Source: Muricea muricata
Taxonomy: Eukaryota; Cnidaria; Anthozoa; Malacalcyonacea; Plexauridae
DNA: 64,000 nucleotides
NCBI GenBank assembly: GCA_963855995.1
Contig: OY979716.1
Span: 42,106,854-42,170,853, forward strand
Reading direction: 5' to 3'
Made by a program: the position numbers and the translations under genes. Shown here one piece after another: positions 6,383 through 41,900 of the stretch (position 1 is its first letter; each line of letters begins with the position of its first letter). The notes beneath the pieces are model-generated. The model was not told the DNA's origin and did not search any database. It was given only the letters and a program-made list of their open reading frames with translations.

Positions 6383-7915
6383 ATGACGGACCAACAAGAT
6401 GAAGGTATCTTAGAAAATGTTCCAGAAGGTTCAACAGTTAGTTTAAATCCTGCTGCCAGGAAGCGCAAAAAGTATGAAGTGAGATGGGGAAAATCGAGGG
6501 TAAATTTATACGAGCAATTCGTTCCATGGACGTAATTAAAAAGCGAGCAAAATTTTGACACCCACAAACAGCTTGCAGAGTTTCTGATTAACTTTTATTT
6601 GTTGGGACGAAATGCTGTTGTTAAGTAGTATGTAAAAAGTTCTGGTGCTTTTTATTATACTGTATATGCTATGGCCGTAATAACCATACTTTGTTTCATA
6701 TTTTTGCTTATTTAGCGACGCGGAAACACAGACAGACAAAGATCCTTTATGTGCAGAATCACCAATAAAACCGATAGAGCCATGTAAGTATCAATTTTTT
6801 CAACTTGTGTAGCAGTTCTTTGAATGTCGAATATAGTGTATTTTTGAATGCTTTCTTCCTTTAATAGTGATGATGTCCACTCCTATAAAGTCAACCCATG
6901 ACCCAAATGAATCTGAGACAGAGGAAACTCATGGTCAAACAGATAAGCCATCCAGGAAGCAGCGACGTCTTGTAGAATCTACAATTTCCGCATCTACGCA
7001 GTCACTGTATATTATATATCATACATTTACATATTCAGTTTTTTTCTTGTAACTAGGGTGGAAGGGCAATAGGTATGTGACAAAGAACCTAAAAGCTAAA
7101 GAAAGCCCAATATTGAATTATTCCTCTAAATATAATGTTCTTATCCGTGTAGTCTGAGTTCAAAACTGTAAATTTGTGTTCTGTTCTCAGATTGGATGCA
7201 AGTCAAGATGTTGAGAGAACACTGACAGGCACAGAGTTTCCGTACAATAGAATGATGACAGTGAGGAATTGAATATTAATGAACAAAGTATGGTGTAAAT
7301 ATTTAACTGAATTAAAGTTGCTTAATATTTGTTTATTGGAATACCCATTTTATATTTTTGCTATGCTTTCAAGTTTCCATTTTCAGTCTGAACATTCTTT
7401 TTATTACTGGTACTGTATGTAACCAAATCGTTATTGGTAATTTTGTTAAACTGCTGAAGAAATGCCATTTTTCCAAAACCAGACATTTTATACACATTAT
7501 GTACATTAAATGGTATCTCTACAAAACTGATGTCACCATTTAGCACATAAATATGCTATTTTATGTTTTTAGTGATCAATTGATCTGTGGTAATTATTCA
7601 AGTTTGCTTATTCTTTTAATTTTTTAGGACAAATGTTGATGAATTAAGAAAGATTTCTTTGGAGGAGGAAGTGTTTGACACATTTTTGTGTGAAGAAGAA
7701 GAAGAAGCAGAAGATCCAGATCTCACAGACGACCCACCACCAACTGCTAATGTACCTGCAGATGTTCCTCATTTGCAACTTGTACAAATGGAAAAGTGTA
7801 TCGCGTTTACAGATCGCATACTTGAACTGTTGAAAATGGTGCATGGTGTTAATTGTAATAGATCAGATTGTTGTCGGCAATGGGAGTACATCAAAACATA
7901 TGTTGTTAGCTGTCT
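6383..7915 (+). pseudogene. Truncated copy A of candidate DDE transposase gene
   Basis: Exon 1 starts MTDQQDEGILENVPEGSTVS and contains ARKRKKYEVRWGKSRVNLYEQF. An in-frame stop at 6533-6535 precedes FDTHKQLAEFLINF. Later exons are at 6716-6783, 6868 to about 7006, and 7628-7915, the last with EEVFDTFLC, an acidic stretch, and MEKCIAFTDRILELLKMVHGV with a Cys pair. Exon order and content follow the gene at 38923-42754 (KRRKKYTAERDKTKVSLFEHF; DDVFDTTLAGSDEA; MEKCITFCFKILHLLQAIHG). The copy ends abruptly at about 7915, at the first GGAATTCC-type repeat, so the CACTA-like element probably truncated it. The catalytic half is missing. Confidence 0.7.
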
Positions 7916-7924
7916 TCCCTTACG

Positions 7925-8215
7925 AAAAATTCCTATAGGATCTTATAAGAATTCCTATAGGAAATTCAAATTCCTATGAGAATTCCTACAGGACATAAAC
8001 ATTCCTATTAGAATTCCTATAGGACATAAACATTCCTATTAGAGTTCCTATAGGACATAAACATTCGTATAAGAATTCCTATAGGACACAAAAATTCTTA
8101 AGTACTTCTATTGGAATTCCTATAGGATATAAATATGCTATAAGAATTCCTGTATGACCTAATTCTTGTATTCGAATTCCTATAGGATATAAATTTTCAG
8201 ACTTATAAACTAAGA
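7925..8215. repeat. Left sub-terminal GGAATTCC-type repeat array
   Basis: At least eight imperfect copies of a roughly 31-bp unit of the form GAATTCCTATAGGACATAAA, containing the palindromes CCTATAGG and GAATTC. The core is shared with the array at 18195-18545, but the spacer sequence differs (CATAAACATT here). Confidence 0.85.
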
Positions 8216-8681
8216 GAATTCCTAATACCATACCTATTTATGCATGAATTTTTATGTTGTAGAAATTTGTAAGTGGTAGATACAGAAAACGTTAACTCAG
8301 TAGAACAGAATACAGTCAAAGTCTAGTTCACCATTTAGATATTATAAGAAAAGTACCAATATGATAAGCCCTTTTTTGCAATATTAAGATGTGTTATGCA
8401 GTTGTAGGAAGTAAACTGCTTTTCACGTAGCTAGGATTTTTTATATAATGTGAACGAGGAGTAGAATTCATGAGTTATAGCAATTTAATTATAGCTATAG
8501 CTGGTTTTTCAAGTATATCCTTTGTGCATGTATTTTCTAAATTGTTTTCTCCTATAATTAAATTAAGTTGCTACTAAAAGTTTGTCAGCCTTTTTGAGCT
8601 GTCATATTCAGCACTGCCTTTCGCAAAGTGCTTGGATTTATTCATTACACTATAATTACATCTATTTACATCCTAATAATA
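8216..8681. other. 3' flank of the TNP2-like gene
   Basis: Non-coding AT-rich sequence between the left repeat array and the stop codon of the minus-strand transposase. This is the probable 3' UTR and element arm. No further feature was recognised. Confidence 0.5.
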
Positions 8682-11600
8682 TCAATTGTCATTTATGTGA
8701 TAAGGAAGTGGGCAAAAGTATTTTTTACCTTCCAACTTCAGTAAAATACATTTCTTCCTAATTTGACTAGGATAAATTGCTATTTGTACAGTAGCATGTT
8801 CTACCTCTGTCAAGAAAAAGCTTTCTACGTTAAAGTCAGAGTCTCTGTATAGTGGTCTACCACGCACAATCTTTGGTTGAACCAACACAACATTGTAACT
8901 ACTGCAATTGCAGTATTGGAGTTGTTCTGTAGTGCATAAACACCCTGGCTTCATTATTAAAAGACCTAGAATAATGCCATATGCATACTGGCCATGCTCA
9001 AATGTTATATTTCTGTTGATATGTCTCTTTGCTCTAACATACTCTATACTTGAGTACATCTTCTTATGTGCAACAAATCGCTAAAACATCAAACCACTGC
9101 GTTTTTTCACTTCCACTCCAATCAAATCTTGCACAGCAAGCACTTGTGATGCAGTGAGCTGGACGGCTCTTTCTTTGCCAACACCTCGAACATCTTCTGA
9201 AAGACACACATCATTGTCAAAAGGCTTAGCATCTCTTAGCTTTTGGAACAGTTGGTAAACAGCAGGGCTGCTTTGTTCGTTGATACATTGCTTGGCGAGT
9301 ACAGGAATCCTTTTGGTAGTCACGTATGTCTCTACAATCTGCCTTGGAATGTGTTGCGTACCGTGAAACATCTTTTGCAAGGTGTGATTGTTGGACTCAA
9401 ACATGAATGCTGCAGTGGACCAAAGAGGGCCACAATCTCGAACTGACTGTGCAAGATGGATTAACTGATGGACATTGAATGTACAATATGTCAAGCCATA
9501 CAATTCCTCAACTTCAATAACAAATTTTGTTAAAGAAGCTTCCGCAGAATTGATAGCATCTTCCGTGATGCAATCGCCAAGGAGAGAGTACACACCATAC
9601 ACGAACAAGAAAAAATGCTTCAGATATGTTAAAGGGAGTATGCCATGGAGAATAACTAGACTATAGAAGATAAAGGCCCTCCACTCTGATGCTTTCCAGT
9701 GATTTCTATCACCACCAATTGACCTTGGTGCACGGCTCATTTCCCCAGGAACTTCAATTAAATGTAGTCGGGCATTAATCTCTTGTTCACTTCTGCCAAT
9801 GTAGAAACGGTTTTCATGCTGTCGACTGTCCATCCATAGATTGACAAATTGACGCGTTACACCCAAACAGACACAATGCATGAAGTCAACAGCAACCCCT
9901 GCAATTAAAAATGGGTTTTTCAAGATTTAAAAGTGCTCATTACCAAAGTGAAGTAATCATGTGACCAAACATGAAATCTAAAAGAGTGGATGGATGAAAC
10001 TGTATTTATACAGCTTAAACCTAAAAAAGGGTTACTCGAGCTTTACGCCAGATGGGCGATGACGCATTCATCACACTAACTAAATTGATGTTCACACTCA
10101 TATTTGTTCCCATATATTGTATGTACGTTTCCAATTTTTTTTTTCAACACTATGGGGTCAATTAATTCAGAAAAGCCAGGGGTATGCGGGTTAATCACCC
10201 GTGAGGAAGGTTTGCAGAATGGGCAGTCAGTGAGGAAGGTTTAATGTCAACACACTACATAATGAATCCTAAACACTAACATAAGAATACAAAAAAAATA
10301 ATAGACGATGATCTATTCCTGTAGTCGTGCCTTCTTTCTGAGGAAATTAGTGATCAGGCTTCATTCCCATCTTCAGTTTAGAAAGCCCAACTTTACAACA
10401 TTTTGAGGAAAGTTCATGCAGACTTTGAAAATTTTGCCTGGAGGAAAGTTGAACGCTTTTTGCAACTCTGAATTAATTATAATTATAATCTTCGAATATT
10501 AGTACATTCTTACCTCGTACTTGGTCAAAGGAGGGAAGAATTCCAACTACAGATGGCCCTTTGACATCCTCGCCTTTTTGGATTGCTCGAAGACCATACT
10601 CAACTTGCTTTTGAGCTGTGCGCACCTTCGGAAGGCCTCTGTACGGGTAATATCTGGTTGGGGGACCACCATTATTAATGGTTTCACCAGGAAACTCACA
10701 CCAGTCACATCCATGCTTACCATTGAACTGTTTACAGTTTTTCACAATGGCTCTAGCTGGTGAATCAGCACTGAAAATGTGTGCATAAACCTTTATTGGC
10801 TGTCTTTCACCTTCAAATGCAAACCCGACTGTCTCAAGCAACTTGCACTCTTCAATAAATGGCTTAAGAAAGGTATTCATAGCAGGTTTCTTAGTTCCAA
10901 ACCAGAGGCCATGCAAAAGAATGTGTTTTTCTCGTAAATGAGGAGGCAGTTTGTTAATTGCACTCTGTATTGGCCAAATCGAGTAATTGGAAGATTCGAA
11001 GACAGGAATACCATCTGTGTTCCAGGTTAATGATAAATCATTGCTAGAAAAATTATAGCTCTCCACTAACTTGCTATATAGCTCTGCAGATGTTATGTCT
11101 GAGATGATACCTGGATTTCGGTTCGTAGTGGCATGGTTTTTTAAATATTGTTTCAATTTGTCCTCACCAAGCAAGTCTTCAATTTGACGTTTCATTGGTA
11201 GATATAAGAAATAATTACCGTTCTTGGTACACTCATCAGCGTTAAATATTTCCCTGCAAGATTCACAATTTCTTTCCACTCTGCTTTCCCCAAGGTAAAA
11301 GAAACATGATGGGCAATAGAAGTGAATCTAAAAAATAAAAAAGTAATTAACAAAAGATTTAAGAAAAGACAGTGACACAATACCATATAGATTGGACAGT
11401 GAGAAATTCCTTCTGTTTATGGCACCTAAAAAGAGCCAGATGCCTATTTGCTGGCAATCTAAAGTCCATTTGCACATACTTAAATAAATATATAAAGTTA
11501 CTTCTAAACCTCATTAATAATTCATGAGAAAAACACAAAGGAAATCATAGCCGTGACTAGAGTCTATACATGAGATAAAACACATGTCGATTTTCACAAA

Positions 11601-11704
11601 TCTTTTACTTCGATTTTCTCGGCTTGTACAACATCTATATTGAAAATTCTTTTATATACAAACAGACCAGATGGGTATAAAATGAATCGATTTAGAAGTC
11701 ATTT

Positions 11705-11797
11705 AAAACACTCGCAATTCGCGCTTTATCAGATATACAACGCTCGGCTTCGCCTCGCGTTGTATATCTGATAAAGCACTCCTGCGCGTGTTTTAAA
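11705..11797. repeat. Palindromic hairpin in intron 3 of the transposase
   Basis: AAAACACTCGCAATTCGCG and CGCGTGTTTT frame TTTATCAGATATACAACGC and its reverse complement around a GC-rich loop (CTCGGCTTCGCCTCG). This perfect 19-bp stem core fits a small foldback element. It lies just before the MITE at 11809. Confidence 0.8.
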
Positions 11798-11808
11798 TAT
11801 TACATATA

Positions 11809-12161
11809 CAGGGTGTACCAAAAAAACTGCAAACTATTGAAAATAATCTATTGTTAGAATTTTAATGGCCGAGCAATAAATTAAACCCATGAGTGCATAA
11901 ATTATTGACATATTAAGTAAGTATTATGCATAACGAAGTGGTGTCATCTTTGCAAAATTATTTTCCTTTAGAGTTTACAAAGCTGCTTTAAATTCCCAAG
12001 GGCAGAAAATTAAAAAGATATTTTAATTTCTTAATACATCAATACTTAATACATGCACCCTGTCAATATTTTGCACTATTTACCTTTAGATTAGTGCTCG
12101 GCCATTGAAATTCTAACAATAGATTATTTTTAATACTTTGCGGTTTTTTTGGTACACCCTG
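11809..12161. mobile_element. Tc1/mariner-type MITE (353 bp)
   Basis: Terminal inverted repeats of about 70 bp begin CAGGGTGTACCAAAAAAACT and are flanked by TA on both sides (11807-11808 and 12162-12163). No coding capacity. The TA duplication and the CAGGGTGT end place it with mariner-type non-autonomous elements. It is in an intron of the minus-strand transposase. Confidence 0.85.
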
Positions 12162-12980
12162 TATACCAGAATGTTTTGTTGTTTAATTTCTAACACTAAA
12201 AAATTAACCTGTTGAGCAATGAAATAGCTAGTATTGCCAGTCAATAGGCAACAACATTAAGACCAATTTAGCCTGTACAGTATATATTACATGTCCAATG
12301 AAATTTGAGATAAATATTTATTGTATACTATATAGTTACATGTATTACCTGAAATAAACCACAACCAAGTGCTTTGAAGAATTTATATTTTGTGCCTGGT
12401 ATTGAATGTGGTAACAGGACATTCAACAAAACCAATAGATCTTGTAGTGCCTCATGTGTGAGATGATGTCGGATTACATATGCCATGACAAGAAGGAGAC
12501 ATTGTGCTGTAGTAACATTGGATCCTTGGTAAATAGGGGTTTCATTCACCAAGCTTGCTTGCTAATTAAGTAAAAAAATACAATTAGAACATTTTACAGT
12601 CAGGTACTTAAAGGCATCAGTGCAGAGTTGTGCTCATTTCTATGTGATCTGAAGGCTGTTTTAAGAAAGTGTATGGTTTTTAGCAATAAAACCTGAATAT
12701 TTAGCTAACGTAAACACAGTAGTTTGCTGACCACACCATTATGCACTCGTAAATAATATTGGGTTAGTTCAAAAAACAATTTCACACCACATTTTCAAAC
12801 AATTTCACACCACAGCTAAGCACTTTATATGCCGGTACCGGTAACAAAAATTACAGTTACCATTGAGCAATCATAGAAAATACAAAAAAATGGACACTGT
12901 AGATAGAAATAATTTTTATATGATGTTTTGACTATCTTGCAGTCATCATCAGTCAGCCTCTAAACAACTTATATATATAT

Positions 12981-13388
12981 ACAAATAAGACACAAAGACT
13001 TAGCAAGTTGTGTAAGGCATATTCATTACTATTTAGTTTCATACTACACTTAGTGTAGCACTCTTCAGACAAATAGCCTATGTTATTTGTCTGAAGAGTG
13101 CTACACTAAGTGTAGTACGAAACTAAATAGTAATGAATATGCCTTACACAACTTGCTAAGTCTTTGTGTCTTATTTGTTGATTATGCTCTGGAAATCCAT
13201 TGAGCACTTTATAATTGGTTTTTATAACCCAACACAAATTATTGTTATATATATTGTTATATTGTCATATATATTGTTATATATATATATTGTTATTTGT
13301 CTGAAGAGTGCTACACTAAGTGTAGTACGAAACTAAATAGTAATGAATATGCCTTACACAACTTGCTAAGTCTTTGTGTCTTATTTGT
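12981..13388. repeat. 95-bp unit present three times (one inverted, two direct)
   Basis: A unit starting ACAAATAAGACACAAAGACT (12981-13075) is followed after 8 bp by its reverse complement (13084-13178), and again in that second orientation at 13294-13388. Copies differ at only a few positions. The AT-rich spacer at 13179-13293 has TATATTGTTATA motifs. It looks like a foldback element with one arm duplicated, in intron 2 of the transposase. Confidence 0.9.
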
Positions 13389-14236
13389 GCAGGCAGACAT
13401 TACATAACCTGTGCAAAAAAAAGCTGGATTGCACTTTCTAAAAAGGATCCTTCAAGGACCAGATCAGACAAGTTTATCTCCATATAAACACAATACAGAA
13501 AATATTATAGAAATATACTGGTATACATGCTGTAATCCTAATCATTCCTATTCTGGCAAACATTTATATAATATAACGACCGTAATTCATCAGTAAGTTG
13601 ACAATGAGGGTTTATAAATTGTTCGACAATGAGATTAATAGCTAGGGACATAACAAATATCCCCCGGGCACAGCACTAGTAGCATTTACCCCAGTCACAG
13701 GTGCATTGCAATGGTATATATTTCCATACATACCTGCAGATCATCATGGCTTTCAGCAGATTGTCGGTGATTTATTTCAGTTGTTGCTTCATCAAATATC
13801 ATATTTTCAAGACCCTCCCTCTCAAGTTCATAGGTCTCTGTTTCACTTAATTCAGGATCAGAAGCATGGTTATCCTGTTAAAATTGATATGAATTAATAC
13901 AGTTATCCAGTTTCATGAAAGTTATATATAGTGTCATTATAGGCACTGGGTCAGTGAACAGTGTTCACAGAAGAAAATTTTACAATAAGAACACTTATGC
14001 ACCTTTATGTGGGTATCGTATTAGTGTCTTACCTGTAAATCATGGTCATCTAAATACACTTGTTCATTATCTAGAGGCAAGGGATGAGTGTTGTTTTCAA
14101 AATCCTCATAATTGTCCACAGAATCGCCAATATCAACTTCCACTAAACGCCGTTTACGTCTATCATGCAAAGTAGATTTCGGAACGGCAATACTAGCGTT
14201 TACTTCGTATTGTTTGTATGGGCCCCTACGAGGCAT

Positions 14237-14554
14237 TTTAAAGTTTTAAATTAAGGCTTTAACCATACAAATATTTATTCCCAAGAGCAAAAGAGTTGAC
14301 AAATTAATATTGGTTCGAGCGAGCAATATTTCTGATTGAATATTGCCATGGAAACGCATGGTTTGTGACCAATCAGAGTCTTTAAATATGACCTCATTCA
14401 CATTTCCCAGCATTCCAGGCGTTTGAGACACTGTTGACCTCACATTTGACATTTAATACTTCAGCGTCTTTCCATTTGTTTGTGGCATTGTGGTCAACAC
14501 AAATTCTCGCAGTAAAAAAGCGCAATCGTAAAGCAAAACCTTTACCACATGACG
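14237..14554. promoter_or_regulatory. 318-bp divergent promoter region between TNP2-like and BEN genes
   Basis: The start codons of the minus-strand transposase (14236) and the plus-strand BEN gene (14555) face away from each other across 318 bp. The spacer contains CCAATCAGAG (14371), a CCAAT-box-like motif, and no transposon terminus. Divergent transcription from one shared control region is inferred from layout only. Confidence 0.5.
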
Positions 14555-15762
14555 ATGAAATTTGCTTTGTACGAGTTTTGTGAAGACAACAGCTGCGATG
14601 TGGGTGAAAGTCATTGGATGGTGGGCGAGAATGACTCTTCCTTCAACAACAACGATTGGGTTACGAAGAAGGAAATCCTTGTACGTTAGCCAGTACAGCC
14701 GAAGGACTATTCAAAATGGGCAAACAAACATGGAAAGTTCCCGCTGGATTTAGGATGTTCTACTAAAACCTATGCTGCTCGAGTCCTAAAATTTCATGGT
14801 AAGCTTGACTTATAACTATATAATATAGTTTAAATTAGTTTACGGCGCTTATTCAGTTAGTGCATATTCTGTTGCGTTTTTAAAACGCAGTTGTATAAAA
14901 TCTGCCAAAGGTAAATATTATTAGGTTTAATAAATTATTTTTATGTTAATAAGCAATAAGATATATAAGTTATCGATATATACAATTATTTGTTTGAATG
15001 GCGGAAAATTCTACAACAGCTACAGATGTATTGTTGCCCATGCTGTGCAAAGATGTGATTTATTACTACCGGTTGGATTTATTTAAATTTGGCGCGCACA
15101 CTAATGCCTGTCAGCTTTAATAAAAGCTTGCATAATAATTTTATAATAAAGGCTAAAAGCAGTTACTAGACTTAACACATTGACATGTTTATGAAATATA
15201 CTGGAAGGCATAAATTTAAAGGTACATGAATTGGGAAGGAATTTTAAGGCAAGAATCCTGACAATTATATATATATATATATGTAATTATATATATATGA
15301 CTTGTAAGTGTATTGAAAAAGGACTATATGACAAGGAATTTGCACCCACTATTACCTCACACCTTAAGCCACCACTATGCTTCCCCTGTAAACCTAATTA
15401 ATTCAACTTTTTTCTTATGTTTGAATGCATTTTTCAACCAACAGATGATTATGATTGCCTTTGTGATTTGATGAAAAATTATTTAATCACCGGTACAACA
15501 AAGACACCTTCAAGGGGAAGGGGCCAACGAAATGGCAAGAAGAATGATCGCTGTGGTGATAGAGACGATGAATCATTTGAACCGGTAGGCTTCTTATTAT
15601 CTATATAATTTAAATATTAATTTCATTAATAATGTATAGTTCAGGTATACATTTTTTGTTAATATTGATTTTACCCATTTCATACTGTATATATTTCATC
15701 TGCTCTTGCTTATCTTCTGCCCAAGTTATTCTGTGTTAAAATATTTTGTTCTAGATTAAAAC

Positions 15763-15993
<231 letters not shown>

Positions 15994-17343
15994 CATCATC
16001 TATATGCATGTGTTTTCCTGTCGTAATATAGCCTGTGAAGAAACCAAAAACTGTGAAAAAGAAGTTAACAAATTCATCAATGTCACATGAACACATTACC
16101 ATGTTGAAGGAAAAAATGAGGAGCACACAGTCGAAGGATCTTTTTGAGGTATCAGTGTTATCAATGACTAGATCCATTTTTCTACCCTCGCTTTCATGTA
16201 GTAAACTGGCCAACGTAGGCAAGTCTGAAATGCTAATGAAATTACCTTTATTATTTTGATAAAGGGCAATTCATCACAATCTTCTGATGAAGAAGAATCT
16301 GGCCTATCTGGATCAGATTCAGAGATGAGCAGAATGAGAAAAGAAATTGAAGCAAAAGATAGACAGATCAATTCGTTGAAAAGACAAGTTAGTAATGTAA
16401 AAGGTAAAATTTTGTCTCACATGTATTTTTAAAAATTAATATTAATTTGATACCTTAATTTGTGCTAGACATAAATAGGATTTTTGTCCAAATTGCAGAT
16501 TTGCAAAACTTACAAGACATTGTCATCCAACTAAAGCATTCAGTAGAAAAACTAAACCAACTGACTTCAGTTGGGTTCAAATGCAAAGAGCAGAGGATTG
16601 ATGGCCCTGATATTTCTTCAAAACGTCCGTCCTCGCCAGTCGTTACTATTGTAAAGCCAGCTTCCAGTTCTGACGGTGAACCTGACAGTGTAAGTAACTA
16701 AATACATTTAATTATTAGCATATAATAGCATTAAGTCAGTTCAAAACTGTTAGAACTTTTGTGTTTTTTGTTAAAATCTAACCAACTCTAAATTGCATAG
16801 ACTGTCTTTTACACACTAGACTAAAACTGAAAATTCATTGTTCAAAGGCTTGGACCTTGATGCATTTTTATTGGCACCACTGTTACTGAAATCATTTGGA
16901 CTTATGATTTCTATCTCATATTTAGATAATGCTTTGTCCAGGTGTTGAAATAAACAGGGGGCAAAAGAAAGTTTTAAGTGGTAAGCTCTCTGCCAAAGAT
17001 TTTGTTTATGCTGCACTACCAATGATTTGGTCAAGAGAAGTGCTGTGTACCCACTCAGTCACTGGTCGTAAGTCCAATGCCCACAAAGAAAGAGAAGCAA
17101 AGCCCCAACTTGATGCTGAAAAAGTGAATAGTCTATGCAGTAAGTATCGAAATATTTCAATCATCATTCATTTATCTTTGCGATTTACTACACAGTGTAC
17201 CGTTTTATTACCAAAACTCTATTTGGAATTTTATATGGTCAAAGTCATTTTTCTAATTTTCAGTTTACTTACAAGCAAATATTCATACAGATTGTCAGTT
17301 ACTTAATTACTTGAAACTCAAGATTCGAGCTTTTAAAAAACAA

Positions 17344-17522
17344 GACAACAATTTTGCGGTGATATTTCGACTCTATTTCAAAGGCATTGTCAAACCAGAA
17401 TAAGCTATTTACAAATGTGCTACCATATTATATACAAAGAAACAGCACATTTGTAAAATAGCTTATTCTGGTTTGACAATGACTTTGAAATAGAGTCGAA
17501 ATATCACCGCAAAATTGTTGTC
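17344..17522. mobile_element. Foldback MITE in last BEN intron
   Basis: GACAACAATTTTGCGGTGAT starts an inverted repeat of about 80 bp that returns as its complement ending at 17522, around a short loop (ACCATATTATATACAAAGAA). Arms differ at two or three positions. ACAAG on both sides may be a short duplication, but this is not certain. No coding capacity. Confidence 0.85.
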
Positions 17523-18194
17523 TACAAGATGTTTTTCGGAGTATGTTTTTTCTTATATTTTATTAAATTGTCTGCTGGTAATGGTTTTTGAATTACTTGA
17601 CCTGTCCAATTGTGATACTGTATTTGCCAGGCATAATCTACTAATTTTTAGTTTTCACACATAATACCCTACAAAATAACATGGTTATGCCATGAACCCA
17701 CATGCTATTTAACTCTGAAATGACTGCACATTTTGATTGTAGGACCACTGATAAATTGTCTGTTTTCTGCCACCTGTCACTTACAAATTTGAAACAGTTG
17801 GACAATTTGCAAATAATTGCCATGTGTATAATATATTATATTAAATGCTTTTTTCCATCTATCAGATTATGTGGCACAGAAATTTGGGATTACTCAAAAG
17901 GAAGTAAGAAACTTGATGACAACAAAGATCAACAACATCATCAAGTGTTGCAAGCAGCAAAAAGTTGTTGAACAAAATAATGAATAAGTATTTGAAACAA
18001 TATCAGCAGCAGGTTGAAAGTTTATTCATTGAATTTATTTAATTGTAAAGTTTATTACATTTATTATTTTCTTAATCTTATTAATGATATTAAGTCATCT
18101 TGTTATCAGCTAGTATTTGTAAAAAAATGAGCAATATTAAATCATTGTTAAAGTTAAAAAAGATCTCATTTATATTTTTACTGTTGCTTATCTT

Positions 18195-18545
18195 ATGTTG
18201 AAATTCCTTTAGGAGTATTTATCTATAGGATTGTTTAGGAATTCCTTAGAATTCTTTAGAAATTCCTTTAGGATTCTATAGGAATTCCTTTAGGATTCTA
18301 TAGGAATTCCTAACAAACATTCTATTAAAATTCTACATCCCATAGGAATTCGTTTAGGATTCTTTAGGAATTCCTTTAGGATTCTATAGGAATTCCTCCT
18401 AGGGATCTATAGGAATTCCTTTAGGATTCTATAGGAATTCCTTTTGGAAATCCTTTTCAAATTCCTATTGGAAAAGTCCGAAAATCTGATACAATATCCT
18501 ATAGGAATTCCTGGATGAATTCCTATACAAATTCTTAAAGGAATT
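18195..18545. repeat. Right sub-terminal GGAATTCC-type repeat array
   Basis: A dozen or so imperfect copies of a roughly 22-bp unit, TTTAGGATTCTATAGGAATTCC, with the self-complementary core TATAGGAATTCCTATA present in places. It shares its core with 7925-8215, but unit length and spacers differ, as sub-terminal repeats at the two ends of a CACTA element may. Confidence 0.85.
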
Positions 18546-18547
18546 CT

Positions 18548-18800
18548 ACGGTGGCCCACAACTGCAAACGCAACACAATATTTACTGAACATGACAACAT
18601 ATTTTGTGAAACGCGACAGTCAGTTCACTAAACACAACAACAAATTCATCAAAACACACCGCTAAATTTTCGATGAAAACACAACAACAAGTTTATCAAA
18701 ACACAACAATAAATTCATTAAAACACAACACAATATTTGCAAAACACAACAAAAAATTTTTCAAATACTTGTATACTTCATGTATAATAACTTAATTGGA
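18548..18800. repeat. AACACAACAA-rich repeat with GGTGGCCCACAACTGC start
   Basis: Just after the right array comes CTACGGTGGCCCACAACTGC, then degenerate repeats of AACACAACAACAAATTCATC. It is probably a separate non-autonomous repeat. No coding potential was seen. Confidence 0.55.
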
Positions 18801-18909: not shown

Positions 18910-21900
18910 ATGTTTTGTTCCGGATGTGGCAGTCGCGTAGAAGTAACAAACAAATTTTGTCCTTCTTGTGGACACAAGACGGTGGAAAAAAGCGAAGCTT
19001 CTTGCCAGAAAAACTCCAAAAAAGATATAAAATGTCTTAGTTTTGAGCAGTTTGCTGCAAAAAAGAGGCAGGAAAGGTCAACACATTTCAGAACTTCGAC
19101 CAAGACTAAAGTAAAGATGAAAGATGCAGAACCTTTTGCTTTAATAAACATTGGATTAATGAAATACATCAGCGCTGATACAACAACTCCAGTTCGTGGA
19201 AAATCGTTGCCATTAAAAGTGAACAAAGATGCCCCGTATGCGGAAGTTTTTTCTCTGGCGGTGACGAAGCGGGAGGCATATGACAAATCATTTAATAATA
19301 AATTGAGTTGGAACCTAGTATATCCTGACGGACAACTTTGTGTAACGCTTCCTGGTCAAGCAGAGCAAGAATTCACTGTGAGGAAATATAAAGAAGACTT
19401 AGGAAAGCCATATAACAGAATTACGTTATATTTATGCCCTGAAGAATCCGATCTCGATCATCTCGAGTCTTGGGAAGACAATAGTAGTGGTAACGATCGG
19501 TCTGATCAGTTCGACCAAAATGTCAGGTAATTTAAATATCTGGATAAACTAGTAAAGGCTTATAGCTATTTGTAATTACTCAATGCTACAATTGTGTCAT
19601 TTGTGTGTGATATTGGGCCATTTCTGTGTGGTATAGGCAACCCCCCCCCCCCCCTACGACAAGAGGTCAATGTCTTGTTAAAATTTCAACTCAAGGAATT
19701 TGCAAAAATGCAATAAAAAAGAGTATCGAAGAGGGAAAAACAATATCCAGTGGGGGTTATTAAGATATCTAATAGCCAAAATGGTAATGAAACTTTTTAG
19801 AGGATCGTTCAGGGGGGGGCTGTCCACTGTCCATATTACATGGATGGACAATTGCCTAACAGTCTTTGACCCTTGGGTCTCAGGGTGCAATTCAGTAGGC
19901 TTGTGTTGCTCTAACAGGTGGTCATGCTGCCATGTTGGGAGGTAGGGGACTAAATTAAACTATGTGCACATTGCACAAAGTGTCACAGCCAAAGTGGAAA
20001 CAAAATTAACTAAGTATGAAAATTCTCATTAGAGAGTTTTCAGTTTTCATCCAGAGACAAGGTTTAATAGTACATGCACCCAGTCACCCACTCCAAGGCA
20101 TATTAACGAAAACCAGCTGTGTACATAACTCCAGACATGCAGAACATTCAACATTCAGAAATTATTCAGTTACTGCCTCTGCCATGCATGAATGTATCAT
20201 TTAAATTCATACTATATGTATGTGCTTGCTAACATGATATTTTATATATGGTTCTGGCATAATGATTATAATGAATAATATGCTGAGGGAATAATCATTC
20301 CTCTCATGACTGCTAGTTGTTTTTTAACACATAAATTATGTTCTCAGACAATTTGGTCAGGTGCAAGTTGCCTTCATTTTCCATCCACCTTAAGCCCCTT
20401 AAGGTATTTTGTCCTATGACAATGTTAATTACACTTAATTTATATTATTAGGAAAAAGAAACAAAAAGAAAAATGTACTGGAGAGCATCAACTACAAAGC
20501 ATGTAAGTATACTGAATATAATTCTTTGCATATACATTAATTAATAAATAAACTAATACCTACAACAAACTAATAAATACAATTAATAGATAAAAAAGCA
20601 GTAAACTGATAAATGCAATCCAGATGAGGATGCATGAGCCTTAGATTTCTGTTTTAGCAGCATGTGGTAATAACAGCATTAGGAAATTTGTATATGAGAT
20701 TCATATCTGGAATTTAATATAGGTATGATTGCATGTTTATATAACAAATAAAAATATAAAACAAGTGTCATGAAGTATGGTAATGGTATTTTTGCTCTGC
20801 ATGCCTTTTGTATGATTGCTTTCCTGTACTTGACAGATAATCTTATTTTAATTGCTATAGTGATGATGGTAAACATTGCAATGAAACTATTAGTTCAGAT
20901 TTCAGAGATCAACTTGTTAACACCAGTTCTAGTGATGGTGTTTTGCTGAGTGATTGTGGTAAACTTGATAGTACTGCTAGTTCCAGTAATGATGTTTTGC
21001 TGAATAATGATGCTTCCTCATCTAATACAATATGGCTTCCTGGGAATGATGACTTGCTTTATGCGTCGTTGGTTTTTGATGAGCAGATGACTTGGAGTGA
21101 TTCAGAAAATGAAAGTTTACAAGACAATACAGTGGATATTGAAGTAACTAGTACAAATAAAGATAAACCATTACAAGACATACTTTTAGATTTAAATACT
21201 AAAATTAACCATACTGAAATATCTAAGTTTAATATAAGCAGAGGTCATCTTTGGGAAGGAGCTGTAAGAGGTCTTAAGAGAAAGTCATTTTCTCCAGCAA
21301 ACAAAATCTCTGTTAAATTCACAGATGATGTTGGAATTGCTGAAGGAGCTGTTGATTCTGGGGGCCCAATGAGGGAATTCTTTACTCTCGTTATTGACTG
21401 GATGGTTAGTTCTCAGTTGTTCTGTGGTAATGAAAGACAAAAGTATTTGTCTATTAATGCCAACTACCTTAGTAATGACTATTACTTTCATGCTAGTCAG
21501 CTAATAGCAATCTCAATAGTACATGGTGGTCCAGGCCCTAGGTGTTTTAGTCGATCTTTCTATCATGCGTTGACGAACGGAGTGCTGTCAACTTCTGTAG
21601 ATGTGGAAGATATTTATGATTTTGAATTACAAGGCTCTCTCAGTTCTTTTGTAAATTCTACAACAGTTGAAGAAGCTCAAAAGTTGATATCAAATAGCAA
21701 CTTAGAAACCATTTTTGATCTAGCTGGAACCCTTGAAGTTCTTAAAACAAAGGAAGATGTTCTTAATGTTGCTAAGAAAACTGCTCATTGGTTTTTGTTA
21801 GAAAGGGTTCAAGCCTCCCTAGAACGCTTCAAAGCAGGTCTTGGTGTCCTTGGTGTTTTTGATGCTATGTGCGTGAATCGTGAGCAGTTTAAAGATATAT

Positions 21901-22298
21901 TTTGTTATTCAAGTACTGATTTTAGTGCTGACACGTTCGGTTCTATCTTTTCTATCATGCGAAGTGAAAAAGGTTCTAACAAATGTGCACTGGAAAGTTT
22001 GGTTTTGTCTCATTGGAACGACTTCTTACAGGATGTTGAGGAGGAAGTAATTGCTGGGATAAGTTTCTCTGACATTCTTTTCTTTGTCTGTGGTTGTAAA
22101 GAACTCCCACCTTTGGGTTTGTCTTTAGAGTTGTGTTTTCTACATCTGCCAGAAAAGGATGGTTCGCTTTCTAAATTCCCAAAGGCAAATACCTGTGCAT
22201 GTGAGTTACACTTGCCTGTAGTCCATACCACATATGACAACTTCAAGAAAGATGTAATATTTGCATTTCTTAACACTAAAGGCTTTGGCTATGCATAA
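18910..22298 (+). CDS. Zinc-ribbon / HECT-type E3 ubiquitin ligase, 701 aa
   Basis: Three exons, 18910-19526, 20452-20502 and 20861-22298, join in phase through GT-AG sites to give 701 residues with no lesion. The N-terminus MFCSGCGSRVEVTNKFCPSC is a two-CxxC zinc ribbon. Residues about 95-180 (TPVRGKSLPLKV to NRITLYLCPEE) form a conserved, possibly ubiquitin-like module seen in cnidarian G2E3-like proteins. A Ser/Asp-rich linker follows. The C-terminal 350 residues form a HECT domain: ISVKFTDDVGIAEGAVDSGG PMREFF, the N-lobe signature, and near the end FPKANTCACELHLP, where the Cys after Thr is the expected catalytic thioester residue, then a short tail. Such proteins pass ubiquitin from an E2 to a substrate; the substrate here is unknown. 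Intron 1 has a poly-C run (19628-19643). Of all genes in the window this is the one most likely to be expressed. Confidence 0.9.
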
Positions 22299-38922: not shown

Positions 38923-41900
38923 ATGATGAATAGCAGCGAAGCTTCTTCCTTATCTGCCAGTGGTACTGTTGTTTTGTCTGATCTAGCGGCCAAAAGACGT
39001 AAAAAATATACGGCAGAAAGAGACAAAACAAAAGTAAGTCTTTTTGAACACTTTGAAATTTGGAGAGATTTGCGAAAGGAACTAAATTTAAAGACAGACA
39101 AGGAATTGGCTGGTGTGCTGTTAGAAATTATTTTGGAAAAGATAACGCTTCAAAAAGGTACATTTACTTTACTATCTGTATGGTTAATTGTTGGTTATCA
39201 CATGTTGATAGGGTAAGGTTAATTCAATGATATTTTTGGCTAATAGCACCTTTCAAAGTCACCCATTAGAACAATAAATTATAGCTTTTTATATGTATTC
39301 ATGTTAATATAGTCTTTTAGTGTTTTTGTAATGATTTATTTGTAGTGAAATGTCCACTCAAACGGATTTTGAGCTACATGTAGACGAGCCAGTCATTGTT
39401 GACACAGAGGGAGCCCAACCTGTAACACCAATTCAGCATATCAGACCATGTGAGTGTGAATGGTTTTAATTTATACTGATATACTCGTATGCTTTCTTTG
39501 TCATAAAATGACAAGAATTATGATGACCCATCCCTTTTACTGTGGCCCTTTGTGAAAAGTTAATTCTATTCTCTGACATAATCTTTATTTCTCACAAAGA
39601 ATAAATATAAAAATCAACAGGTAACCATACTATTTGTTGTTGCATTGAATTTAAAAATATATCTTTGTATTTTGAAATAAAATAGTTGTGACTTCTACAC
39701 CACAAGGAGCAAGTCCATCCAAATTTAGGCGCTTAACACTGTTACAATGTGGAGAATCTCCAATCATGACTAGGTAAGTAGTTAAGGTTTACAGTATATA
39801 TATAATTATATATATTTCACATATATGGATGTTACTGACAAAATCCCCCCTCCTCCTCGCCTCAAAAAAAATTTGTGTACGTCCAGGTTGGGAAAGATGT
39901 CCTAAGTATGTTCAAAGGGGGTCACTCTTCTCTTATAATGTTTTGATTGTTATTTAATAAATACTGTTCTACTGTTTTAGTCCACGACCTGCCTCAGAAT
40001 TATTGGAAGAAACTTTGACTGCATCGGAAAGTGAAGATGAACTTGAAGATGATGATGCCCATGATACGAGTAGACCAACACCCAAGTAAGCCCACAGCTG
40101 TAATATCTTTCAGTGTAGATTTTAATAATTTGTTTTAGTTTGGTTCTGATAAACGTCTGATTAACATGTCAGTTGGACATCAACAAGAAATGGTCAGCAA
40201 ACCTTCATAACTAATATATAATTCTCACTAATATATTTTGTGAAATCCTATTTATCATGTTATTTATTTTAGTGAACAAATTGATGAATTGGACAAAGTA
40301 ACGGTTGAAGATGATGTTTTCGACACCACATTAGCTGGATCAGATGAAGCAGGTGATGTTAAAGAAGAACAAAATGAAAAAGATGTTACCTATATGGCAC
40401 CGCAAGATGCAATAGGAATGGAAAAGTGCATAACATTTTGCTTCAAAATCCTGCATCTTCTTCAAGCCATTCATGGGCTAGTGTGTAAGAGAAAAGAATG
40501 TGGAAGAGCGCTTGAGTATAGGCAAACCTTCTGTGGTACATGCTTGGTTGTGTCTTGGCAGTGTAGTGCTGGGCATTTTGGGGGGAGCTGGGCTTCTCAC
40601 CCTAAATGTGAAGGTGTTAGAGCTGGTAATCTGTTACTAGCGTCTTCTATTTGCCTGTCTGGGAATTCATTCAAAAAGGTCGGCCTTCTTTTCTATTTCT
40701 TTAAATCGGGTTTTATCTCCAAGAGCTTGTTCAACCAATATCAGCACCTTTACATTGCACCTGCTGTCAGCGAATACTGGGAGAATATGAAGGTTGACTT
40801 GTGGGAAGATCGAGATGGAAGAGAAGTCATCCTCAGTGGTGATGCCCGAAACGATTCTTCTGGTCATTGTGCTCAGTATTGCACTTATAGCCTTGGTGAT
40901 ATGGAAACAAAGACGATCTTGAACATGAACATAATTGATGTCAGGGAGGTGGAAGGTAGAAAAAGTAACAACATGGAGAGGTGTGTGTGCGTGTGCGTGT
41001 GCGTGTGTAAGGAATCCAATGCAAGCACAACTTTAATCTGTTTTGTAGAGAATGCACCAAAGTACAATGGCATTGTCCATCAACGTGATGTGTGGCATGG
41101 GGCCAAAAATGTCACTAAAAAGGTTATTGATGTAAGTATTTTTTAATATTGTAGAACTATACCTATTTAGATTTATTATAGTTAATCAAGTACTTACAGT
41201 AGCATGTTAATGTGGTTTTATCAGGTTTATATGAAAATAAATCAATTTATTGGCAGCAAAAGTGAAAGGAAATGATGATTTGGGTTTGTGGAGTGCTTCA
41301 GTAAGAAATCATTTTTGGTACAGTGCCCAGAACTCTGGTGGTAATGCTGACAAATTAAAGGTATATTCTCCACATGTACAATCATGTGTGAACAGTGCTG
41401 CCAGATTATGATTTAAAATGAACAACATACAAGTGCTGTATATATTTCAATACAGTACACCTGAAGAAGAACAACTAAATTTTGTTTTGCCCTTTGTTAG
41501 GCACAGAGCAAAGTCTTAATTTCCTTTTCTTTCAGGGAGTCAACAACCTTTGTGCTCTATATGCAATTTATCTGTATGTTTAGTATAAACTACTTCACCC
41601 ACTATTCCTGAATGCCTCTGTCCTGATCTTCCCTTTAGTTGTGAAAAGGTTATGGAACAAAAAGTACTATTTCTTGCGAAGTCCATACTTCAATTTCAAT
41701 ACCTAAATACTAGAATATTTGCTTTATTTTACAGGAAATCTGGATTACATTGCTTCATCATGTTGTTGATGAGCATGTTTGGGCTCTATACGGTGAAAAG
41801 ACAGATGGTAGATGTGCTCATGAACAACTTGATAAAGAGGAAAGGAAGAAGCCATGGTTGAAAAAGAACTCACCTGCACATGATGCACTGAAAAAAATCA

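Follow-up and report, generated by a model that had tools for sequence, protein, structure and literature searches.

What a gene for a BEN-domain protein is doing between the ends of a DNA transposon is the question raised by a locus in the anthozoan Muricea muricata (assembly GCA_963855995.1, contig OY979716.1, positions 42,106,854 to 42,170,853 of the forward strand; this whole stretch of 64,000 nucleotides is called the window here). Positions 7917-18546 of the window hold a decayed copy of an EnSpm/CACTA-type (CMC) transposon, in which a TNP2 transposase gene (- strand) and a BEN gene (+ strand) lie head-to-head, with palindrome arrays outside both, and in which each gene carries one premature stop. 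The complete element, as read from its copies, has terminal inverted repeats starting with CCCTTACGAAAA, family-specific palindrome arrays inside both ends, and TNP2 and BEN genes diverging from the centre. It is probable, in our judgement, that the window element is a dead copy of such a two-gene EnSpm/CACTA (CMC) DNA transposon with CCC termini, and that its BEN proteins would cover the two ends and assist the transposase in pairing them, like the TNPA protein of plant elements. An earlier note on this DNA had described two arrays with a common CCTATAGGAATTCC core and, facing apart between them, a TNP2 gene and a BEN gene; the arrays were borne out, and so were the divergent genes, the latter by canonical TNP2 splice sites and a Pfam BEN match of 3.8e-13 for joined exons 6 and 7. 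Its span of 7920..18548 was corrected to a left end at 7917, set by the shared terminal repeat, and a right limit at 18546, set by the end of a match to another copy; the gap it had reported between the start codons exists, but measures 312 bp and not 318.

The search for other copies that the earlier note had proposed, made with the whole element against the host genome (a 453-Mb assembly; all counts of recurrence given here concern this one genome), supplied that left end, the terminal repeats and target-site duplications of 2-3 bp. One copy, C4, has both ends; its pieces are 92-98% identical to the window and are interrupted by ~15 kb. Incomplete copies turned up on C1 and C3, along with relatives at ~80%. 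Aligned borders place the left terminus, CCCTTACGAAAAATTCCTATAGG, at 7917 and show its inverse, differing at one place, closing the C4 copy on the right; the right terminal repeat is absent from the window copy, where the match to C4 stops. The termini take the form CCCTTACG..CGTAAGGG. Across the genome, the 24-base terminus was matched 38 times at up to 3 mismatches, against 1 match for a reversed control, and its bare 12-mer at 199 places against 61 for the control. Among eight copies read at both ends, target-site duplications measured 2 bp in six (C4 AC, C10 AT, B3 TA, B4 TA, E2 TG and F CT; the chance match for a 2-bp duplication is 1 in 16) and 3 bp in one (E1, AAT), and one copy had none; 2-3 bp is the length that characterizes CMC elements. 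The E1 copy had entered a Helitron-like gene (Helitron_like_N in the right flank, 5.6e-33), and when its flanks are joined with one AAT removed they read through in frame; removal of 1, 2 or 4 bases leaves the frame not open, and removal of none also keeps it open, as any multiple of three would.

The pairing of the two genes was found to recur with a fixed geometry. In Pfam lists of the best-scored candidates from the host genome (at least 57 Transposase_21 hits and, with E up to 1, at least 93 BEN hits, of which 72 exceed the cut-off), a BEN hit lay within 30 kb of 13 of the 57 listed Transposase_21 hits, divergently in all 13, and 12 of these 13 were among the 13 listed TNP2 hits that have a 24-base terminus within 25 kb. 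The top 38 TNP2 hits by score, with neither a BEN hit nor a terminus within those same distances, belong mostly to other clades; one of them, C1:75837624, also matched exon 4 of the C10 copy at 112 bits. A protein search of the genome with that C10 exon returned 124 matches, merged to 99 loci, and those of at least 150 bits were taken as the TNP2 loci of this clade. A BEN hit was present within 30 kb of 34 of these 41 loci, divergent in 34 of 34 (one locus has in addition a second, weak BEN hit in the other orientation). Among weaker loci the figures were 4/11 at 80-150 bits and 3/11 at 55-80 bits, all divergent, and 3/36 below 55 bits, one divergent; uniform chance over all 99 loci would give ~1.2 pairs. 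TNP2 identity to the query among linked pairs ranges from 38 to 100%.

The same pairs are bounded by the termini. For the distinct divergent pairs with TNP2 at 55 bits or more, which also number 41, terminal repeats were found on both sides of 17, on one side of 15 and on neither side of 9, in a count without a shuffled control in which E1 stands as one-sided though its right end was read directly. Both ends match one pattern type in 14 of the 17 two-sided pairs, and in the other three (family B) the right end is one of the added 12-mer places. The exact 12-mer, pointing inward, lies 0.5-5 kb 3' of 16/32 matches of at least 150 bits on C1, and within 5 kb 5' of 0/32; for BEN hits it lies 0.3-4 kb 3' of 10/62 and on the 5' side of 1/62 (both comparisons use 100 of the 199 places, all on C1).

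Selection on the two genes is purifying. In a comparison of the window copy with C10, the ratio of nonsynonymous to synonymous divergence (dN/dS, Nei-Gojobori counts, own script) is 0.09 over 611 codons of TNP2 (exons 3-5, ending at the stop) and 0.22 over 284 codons of BEN (exons 2-7), with dS at 0.88 in each; values for either copy against family B were saturated and were left uninterpreted. The divergent pairing, the two-sided termini, the target-site duplications and the purifying selection together strongly support the view that the BEN gene moves with the transposase. Where the earlier note had looked to copies with a BEN gene independent of the transposase as evidence against a two-gene transposon, the outcome was the opposite.

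A separate observation concerns five BEN hits (C1:23355749, C2:18415415, C2:20040659, C1:58078848 and C29:37713) that have near-equal scores and the same set of in-frame stops; with no TNP2 match within 30 kb, they represent another repeated BEN-bearing sequence. Collections of prokaryote and virus contigs yielded no relatives, a result without bearing on other animals.

Twelve arrays from seven families (labels of this analysis) were examined, families C and A at one end only and family F as stretches of 171 and 176 bp including short flanks. CTATAG occurs 4-10 times per array in all ten arrays of six families (the window family, C10, C, B, A and E), and its 61 occurrences all fall within these ten, against 2.0 expected over the twelve. 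In 300 shuffled versions of each array, made by a script written for this analysis that roughly preserved dinucleotides, the CTATAG count was reached for none of the ten, nor, in the window arrays, was the observed count of GAATTC. Four families (window, C10, C and B) have the latter motif at high frequency, whereas the 458 bp of family A contain a single copy, one array of family E (array sequence TTCTATAGAA) has one and the other none, and both stretches of family F lack it. The earlier note's proposal of GGAATTCC as a general target was therefore not sustained; the constant motif of six families is a CTATAG-centred palindrome. Family F, a more distant one, has no CTATAG and instead 9 and 10 copies of ACATGT, spaced by 10-11 bp in 13 of 17 intervals. 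In several families the first palindrome lies ~25 bp or less from the terminus. A general excess of 8-bp palindromes was also tried as a test and proved weak, since in 7/10 arrays the maximum of 500 shuffles equalled or exceeded the observed value; only the named motifs separated clearly.

Patterns that combine the terminus with the first palindrome gave 67 genome matches for an ACATGT type and 42 for a TCTATAGA type, with 0 for the control in each case. By such patterns 32 of the 41 divergent pairs could be typed: all 27 with TNP2 identity of at least 50% are of the CCTATAGG or TCTATAGA type, and the five below 50% comprise four of the ACATGT type and one of the TCTATAGA type. Although this typing is rough (24-base patterns including the terminus, at up to 3 mismatches, with family B caught by the CCTATAGG pattern despite a differing first repeat), it suggests that changes of the array palindrome (CCTATAGG, TCTATAGA or ACATGT) have by and large followed the gene clade. 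Of 22 ACATGT-type ends read as sequence, at least 12 share one pair of differences (…CCACATGAAA) and have neither a TNP2 (55 bits or more) nor a BEN match on the expected side; they are perhaps the ends of a non-autonomous family.

The BEN gene consists of seven exons on the + strand, from 14549 to 17989, with some boundaries of exons 3-5 approximate. When exons 6 and 7 are joined, families E (1.7e-12) and B (3.7e-16) match the Pfam BEN profile as the window copy does, and exon 1 is stop-free in the one other copy checked. Family B shares 34-48% identity in the four matching exons, and exons 3-5 gave no match. In all, a BEN gene accompanies seven families, its sequence having been read in five and its location given by Pfam in two. 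Among PDB sequences, those closest to the transposon BEN domain are Insensitive, BEND6 and Elba1 (in the profile search that included the Insensitive row, the Insensitive match arises by construction). According to the available text of PMC7764960, Ser304 of Insensitive touches a base, and Thr300 and Lys312 touch the backbone. With these residue numbers placed by eye on an alignment of four transposon BEN domains from four families, the Ser304-equivalent position is Ser in 4/4, and the Thr300-equivalent position is Thr or Ser.

These observations suggest a division of labour at the ends of the element. The outer CCCTTACGAAAA is common to families while the palindromes differ from family to family, which argues for a separate reader of the palindromes, and the BEN protein is the candidate reader because BEN domains read palindromes. 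The transposase would cut at the common terminal repeat; BEN proteins would bind the array palindromes and could assemble into larger complexes through their coiled-coil-like middle; and both ends, coated in this manner, would be brought together for the transposase, as plant TNPA is thought to do. Precedents for the separate steps exist, as far as the available text of the sources goes: the BEN domain of Insensitive binds CCAATTGG as a dimer, in a protein that multimerises and could bridge distant sites (PMC6317261), and the BEN domain of NAC1 selects ACATGT (PMC7764960). A TNPA-like role of the BEN protein is plausible, with indirect support from the family-specific palindromes, from the likeness of the domain to those of Insensitive, Elba1 and BEND6, and from the one family that carries the ACATGT of NACC1.

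The same arrays might serve regulation, with TNP2 alone transposing and the BEN protein acting from the ends on the chromatin or transcription of the element (by activation, insulation or counter-silencing). Insensitive is a chromatin boundary factor (PMC6317261) and plant TNPA also regulates its element's own promoter (PMC1636069), each as the available text has it. Yet the arrays stand at both ends, with the first palindrome close to the terminus in several families, and a motif count found neither CTATAG nor GAATTC in the 312-bp region between the start codons. While these features are compatible with regulation as well, that last count favours, without proof, an end-bound over a promoter-bound role, and we consider a purely regulatory BEN protein unlikely. 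It is less probable still that the transposase itself occupies the arrays, or that these function by folding into DNA hairpins, and that BEN has another job. Any dimeric protein could read palindromes, and a transposase must also distinguish its own ends; but the constancy of CCCTTACGAAAA across families whose palindromes change is what two readers would be expected to leave, and one family carries the very ACATGT reported for a BEN domain. Finally, transposons frequently carry pieces of host genes, but that BEN is a captured passenger or a chance neighbour is already contradicted and very improbable, an independent BEN gene or chance adjacency being ruled out by divergence in 34 of 34 linked pairs over TNP2 identities down to 38% and by the presence of termini on either side of the gene pair in 17 of 41 cases, with purifying selection on BEN besides.

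Several observations weigh against end-coating by the BEN protein of a two-gene element. At the position equivalent to Lys312 (placed by eye as above) the transposon domains have Ala or Pro and not Lys, with an invariant Lys three positions on. For NAC1 the CATG core suffices and binding is monomeric, to judge from the available text of PMC7764960 and PMC11472053, so that binding as a dimer may fail for the ACATGT family; the BEN gene of that family (F) was placed by Pfam at C1:34725115, as a location only. Type and clade disagree in the pair of below 50% identity with TCTATAGA-type ends, and also where a TNP2 fragment of 50% identity lies beside an ACATGT-type end. BEN partners were not detected within 30 kb for 7 of the 41 clade TNP2 loci, and 33 of the 72 listed BEN hits above the cut-off have no TNP2 match within 30 kb. 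The B1 copy, read at both ends, shows no target-site duplication. An AlphaFold model of the family-B transposase had a mean pLDDT (predicted local distance difference test score) of 31.5, and was not used.

Whether recognition of ends by BEN proteins is lineage-wide in CACTA-type transposons, with families having switched palindrome together with the BEN gene and one reaching the ACATGT of NACC1, is a wider proposal that we advance tentatively, as somewhat short of an even chance. If it is true, animal gene regulators would find in these elements a natural source of BEN DNA-binding domains. The families described here offer matched sets of BEN protein and palindrome, with the presumed binding sites in the same DNA, and so make it testable how BEN domains select their DNA targets; should host BEN proteins prove to descend from such transposons, the question of where a class of chromatin regulators came from would become testable as well.

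Features of the transposon copy in the window, with positions in window coordinates
Feature	Position	Strand	Remarks
Left terminal inverted repeat	7917..7940	+	CCCTTACGAAAAATTCCTATAGGA; identical start in C4 and C3 copies
Left sub-terminal array	7931..8237	.	period ~31 bp; CCTATAGG and GAATTC
TNP2 exon 5	8682..9898	-	in-frame stop 9081-9083 in window copy; DUF4218-like region, below cut-off
TNP2 exon 4	10514..11327	-	Transposase_21 region; D, D and C(2)C motifs read by eye
TNP2 exon 3	12349..12561	-	87% amino-acid identity in C10 copy
TNP2 exon 2	13734..13874	-	98% identity in C4 copy
TNP2 exon 1	14033..14236	-	start codon at 14236
Intergenic region between start codons	14237..14548	.	312 bp; presumed bidirectional promoter
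BEN exon 1	14549..14798	+	N-terminal part, conserved in families B and C; window copy with one in-frame stop
BEN exon 2	15445..15584	+	gene model and copy comparison
BEN exon 3	16031..16148	+	5' boundary approximate
BEN exon 4	16267..16402	+	boundaries approximate; coiled-coil-like stretch by eye
BEN exon 5	16499..16688	+	3' boundary approximate; coiled-coil-like stretch by eye
BEN exon 6	16926..17139	+	first half of BEN domain; Pfam PF10523 2.5e-7 alone
BEN exon 7	17866..17989	+	second half of BEN domain, stop codon
Right sub-terminal array	18190..18546	.	period ~22 bp; terminal repeat beyond lost in window copy

The TNP2 gene has five exons on the - strand, with canonical splice sites throughout. 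Up to its stop, the window product matched Transposase_21 at 2.8e-6 and 27.1 bits, slightly under the cut-off of 28.6 bits that family B (34.9 bits) and C10 (28.9 bits) pass; DUF4218 was likewise below its cut-off. Exon 5 is stop-free in 4/4 other copies checked; different stops interrupt TNP2 in the family-C copy. In family B the two large exons of TNP2 show 42-54% identity. The signature D..D..C(2)C..H(3-4)H..E that defines CMC transposases, according to the available text of PMC12730594, was read by eye as WN(T/A)DGIP, S(A/S)DSPAR, CDWC, NVHQL(I/T)HL and FE(S/A)NNH, in full in three of four alignment rows (window, C10 and B); the family-C row has N in place of the first D, and ends before the last motifs.

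Several other repeats were noted in and around the element. A pure (AT)112 repeat occupies 15766-15990, within an intron of the BEN gene, and TNP2 intron 3 holds at 11481-12165 two adjoining repeats that occur at many places in the genome at 92-98% identity, the second starting like ACAGGGTGTACCAAAAAAA and resembling, by eye, a miniature inverted-repeat transposable element. Inverted repeats at 12981-13400 and 17343-17523, in one intron of each gene, match the C4 copy in both orientations. A tandem AAACACAACAACAAATTCATCA repeat stands at 18630-18765, immediately beyond the lost right end. At the left flank, an open frame at 7659-7916 resembles by eye part of the open reading frame at 40289-41146; neither had a Pfam match at E <= 0.01, and the element may have inserted there into another repeat or gene. 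An open frame with a HECT domain (1.3e-14) adjoins the element at 20943-22298.

By its domain, its catalytic signature as read by eye and its target-site duplications, the transposase is placed with EnSpm/CACTA, and by its CCC terminus and 2-bp duplication it is grouped with the animal TRC elements. The termini are not those of plant-type EnSpm/CACTA elements (CACTA or CAC..GTG). Maize En/Spm, with its TNPA and TNPD proteins, likewise joins a TNP2-type transposase to a second protein, and has sub-terminal repeats inside both ends as the window-type elements do. The two systems differ in that tnpA and tnpD arise by splicing from a single transcription unit, in the account given in the available text of PMC1636069, whereas the partner in the window-type elements, by gene models from the DNA, is a separate, divergent BEN gene on the opposite strand, and the termini are CCC and not CACTA. 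The BEN protein is a second protein other than TNPA, which is encoded in one transcription unit with its transposase. CA..TG termini are found in most CMCT lineages (PMC12730594, available text).

The closest likeness by features, drawn without a tree, is to SmTRC1 and the animal TRC/CACTA elements, which share Transposase_21, CCC termini, 2-bp target-site duplications and introns, SmTRC1 having in addition a tandem-repeat region near one end; SmTRC1 differs in having one open reading frame with alternative splicing, and the available text of that source (PMC1636069) mentions neither a BEN gene nor palindrome arrays at two ends. The titles and abstracts listed by a literature search described no transposon with BEN as its second gene, which is weak as evidence of absence, Repbase lying outside their scope; nor, within the same titles and abstracts, was a second protein found for CACTA-type elements with CCC termini, for which BEN would be a candidate partner protein. 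Fungal EnSpm/Plavaka elements with TET/JBP genes are also CMC-type transposons with a further gene, but that gene, in the available text of PMC12730594, is a dioxygenase thought to counter silencing and not an end-binding protein. Insensitive, Elba1, BEND6 and NACC1 share the BEN domain, with palindromic targets reported for Insensitive, Elba1 and NAC1 (PMC7764960, available text); these are regulators of the host, whereas the BEN gene described here lies inside a transposon.

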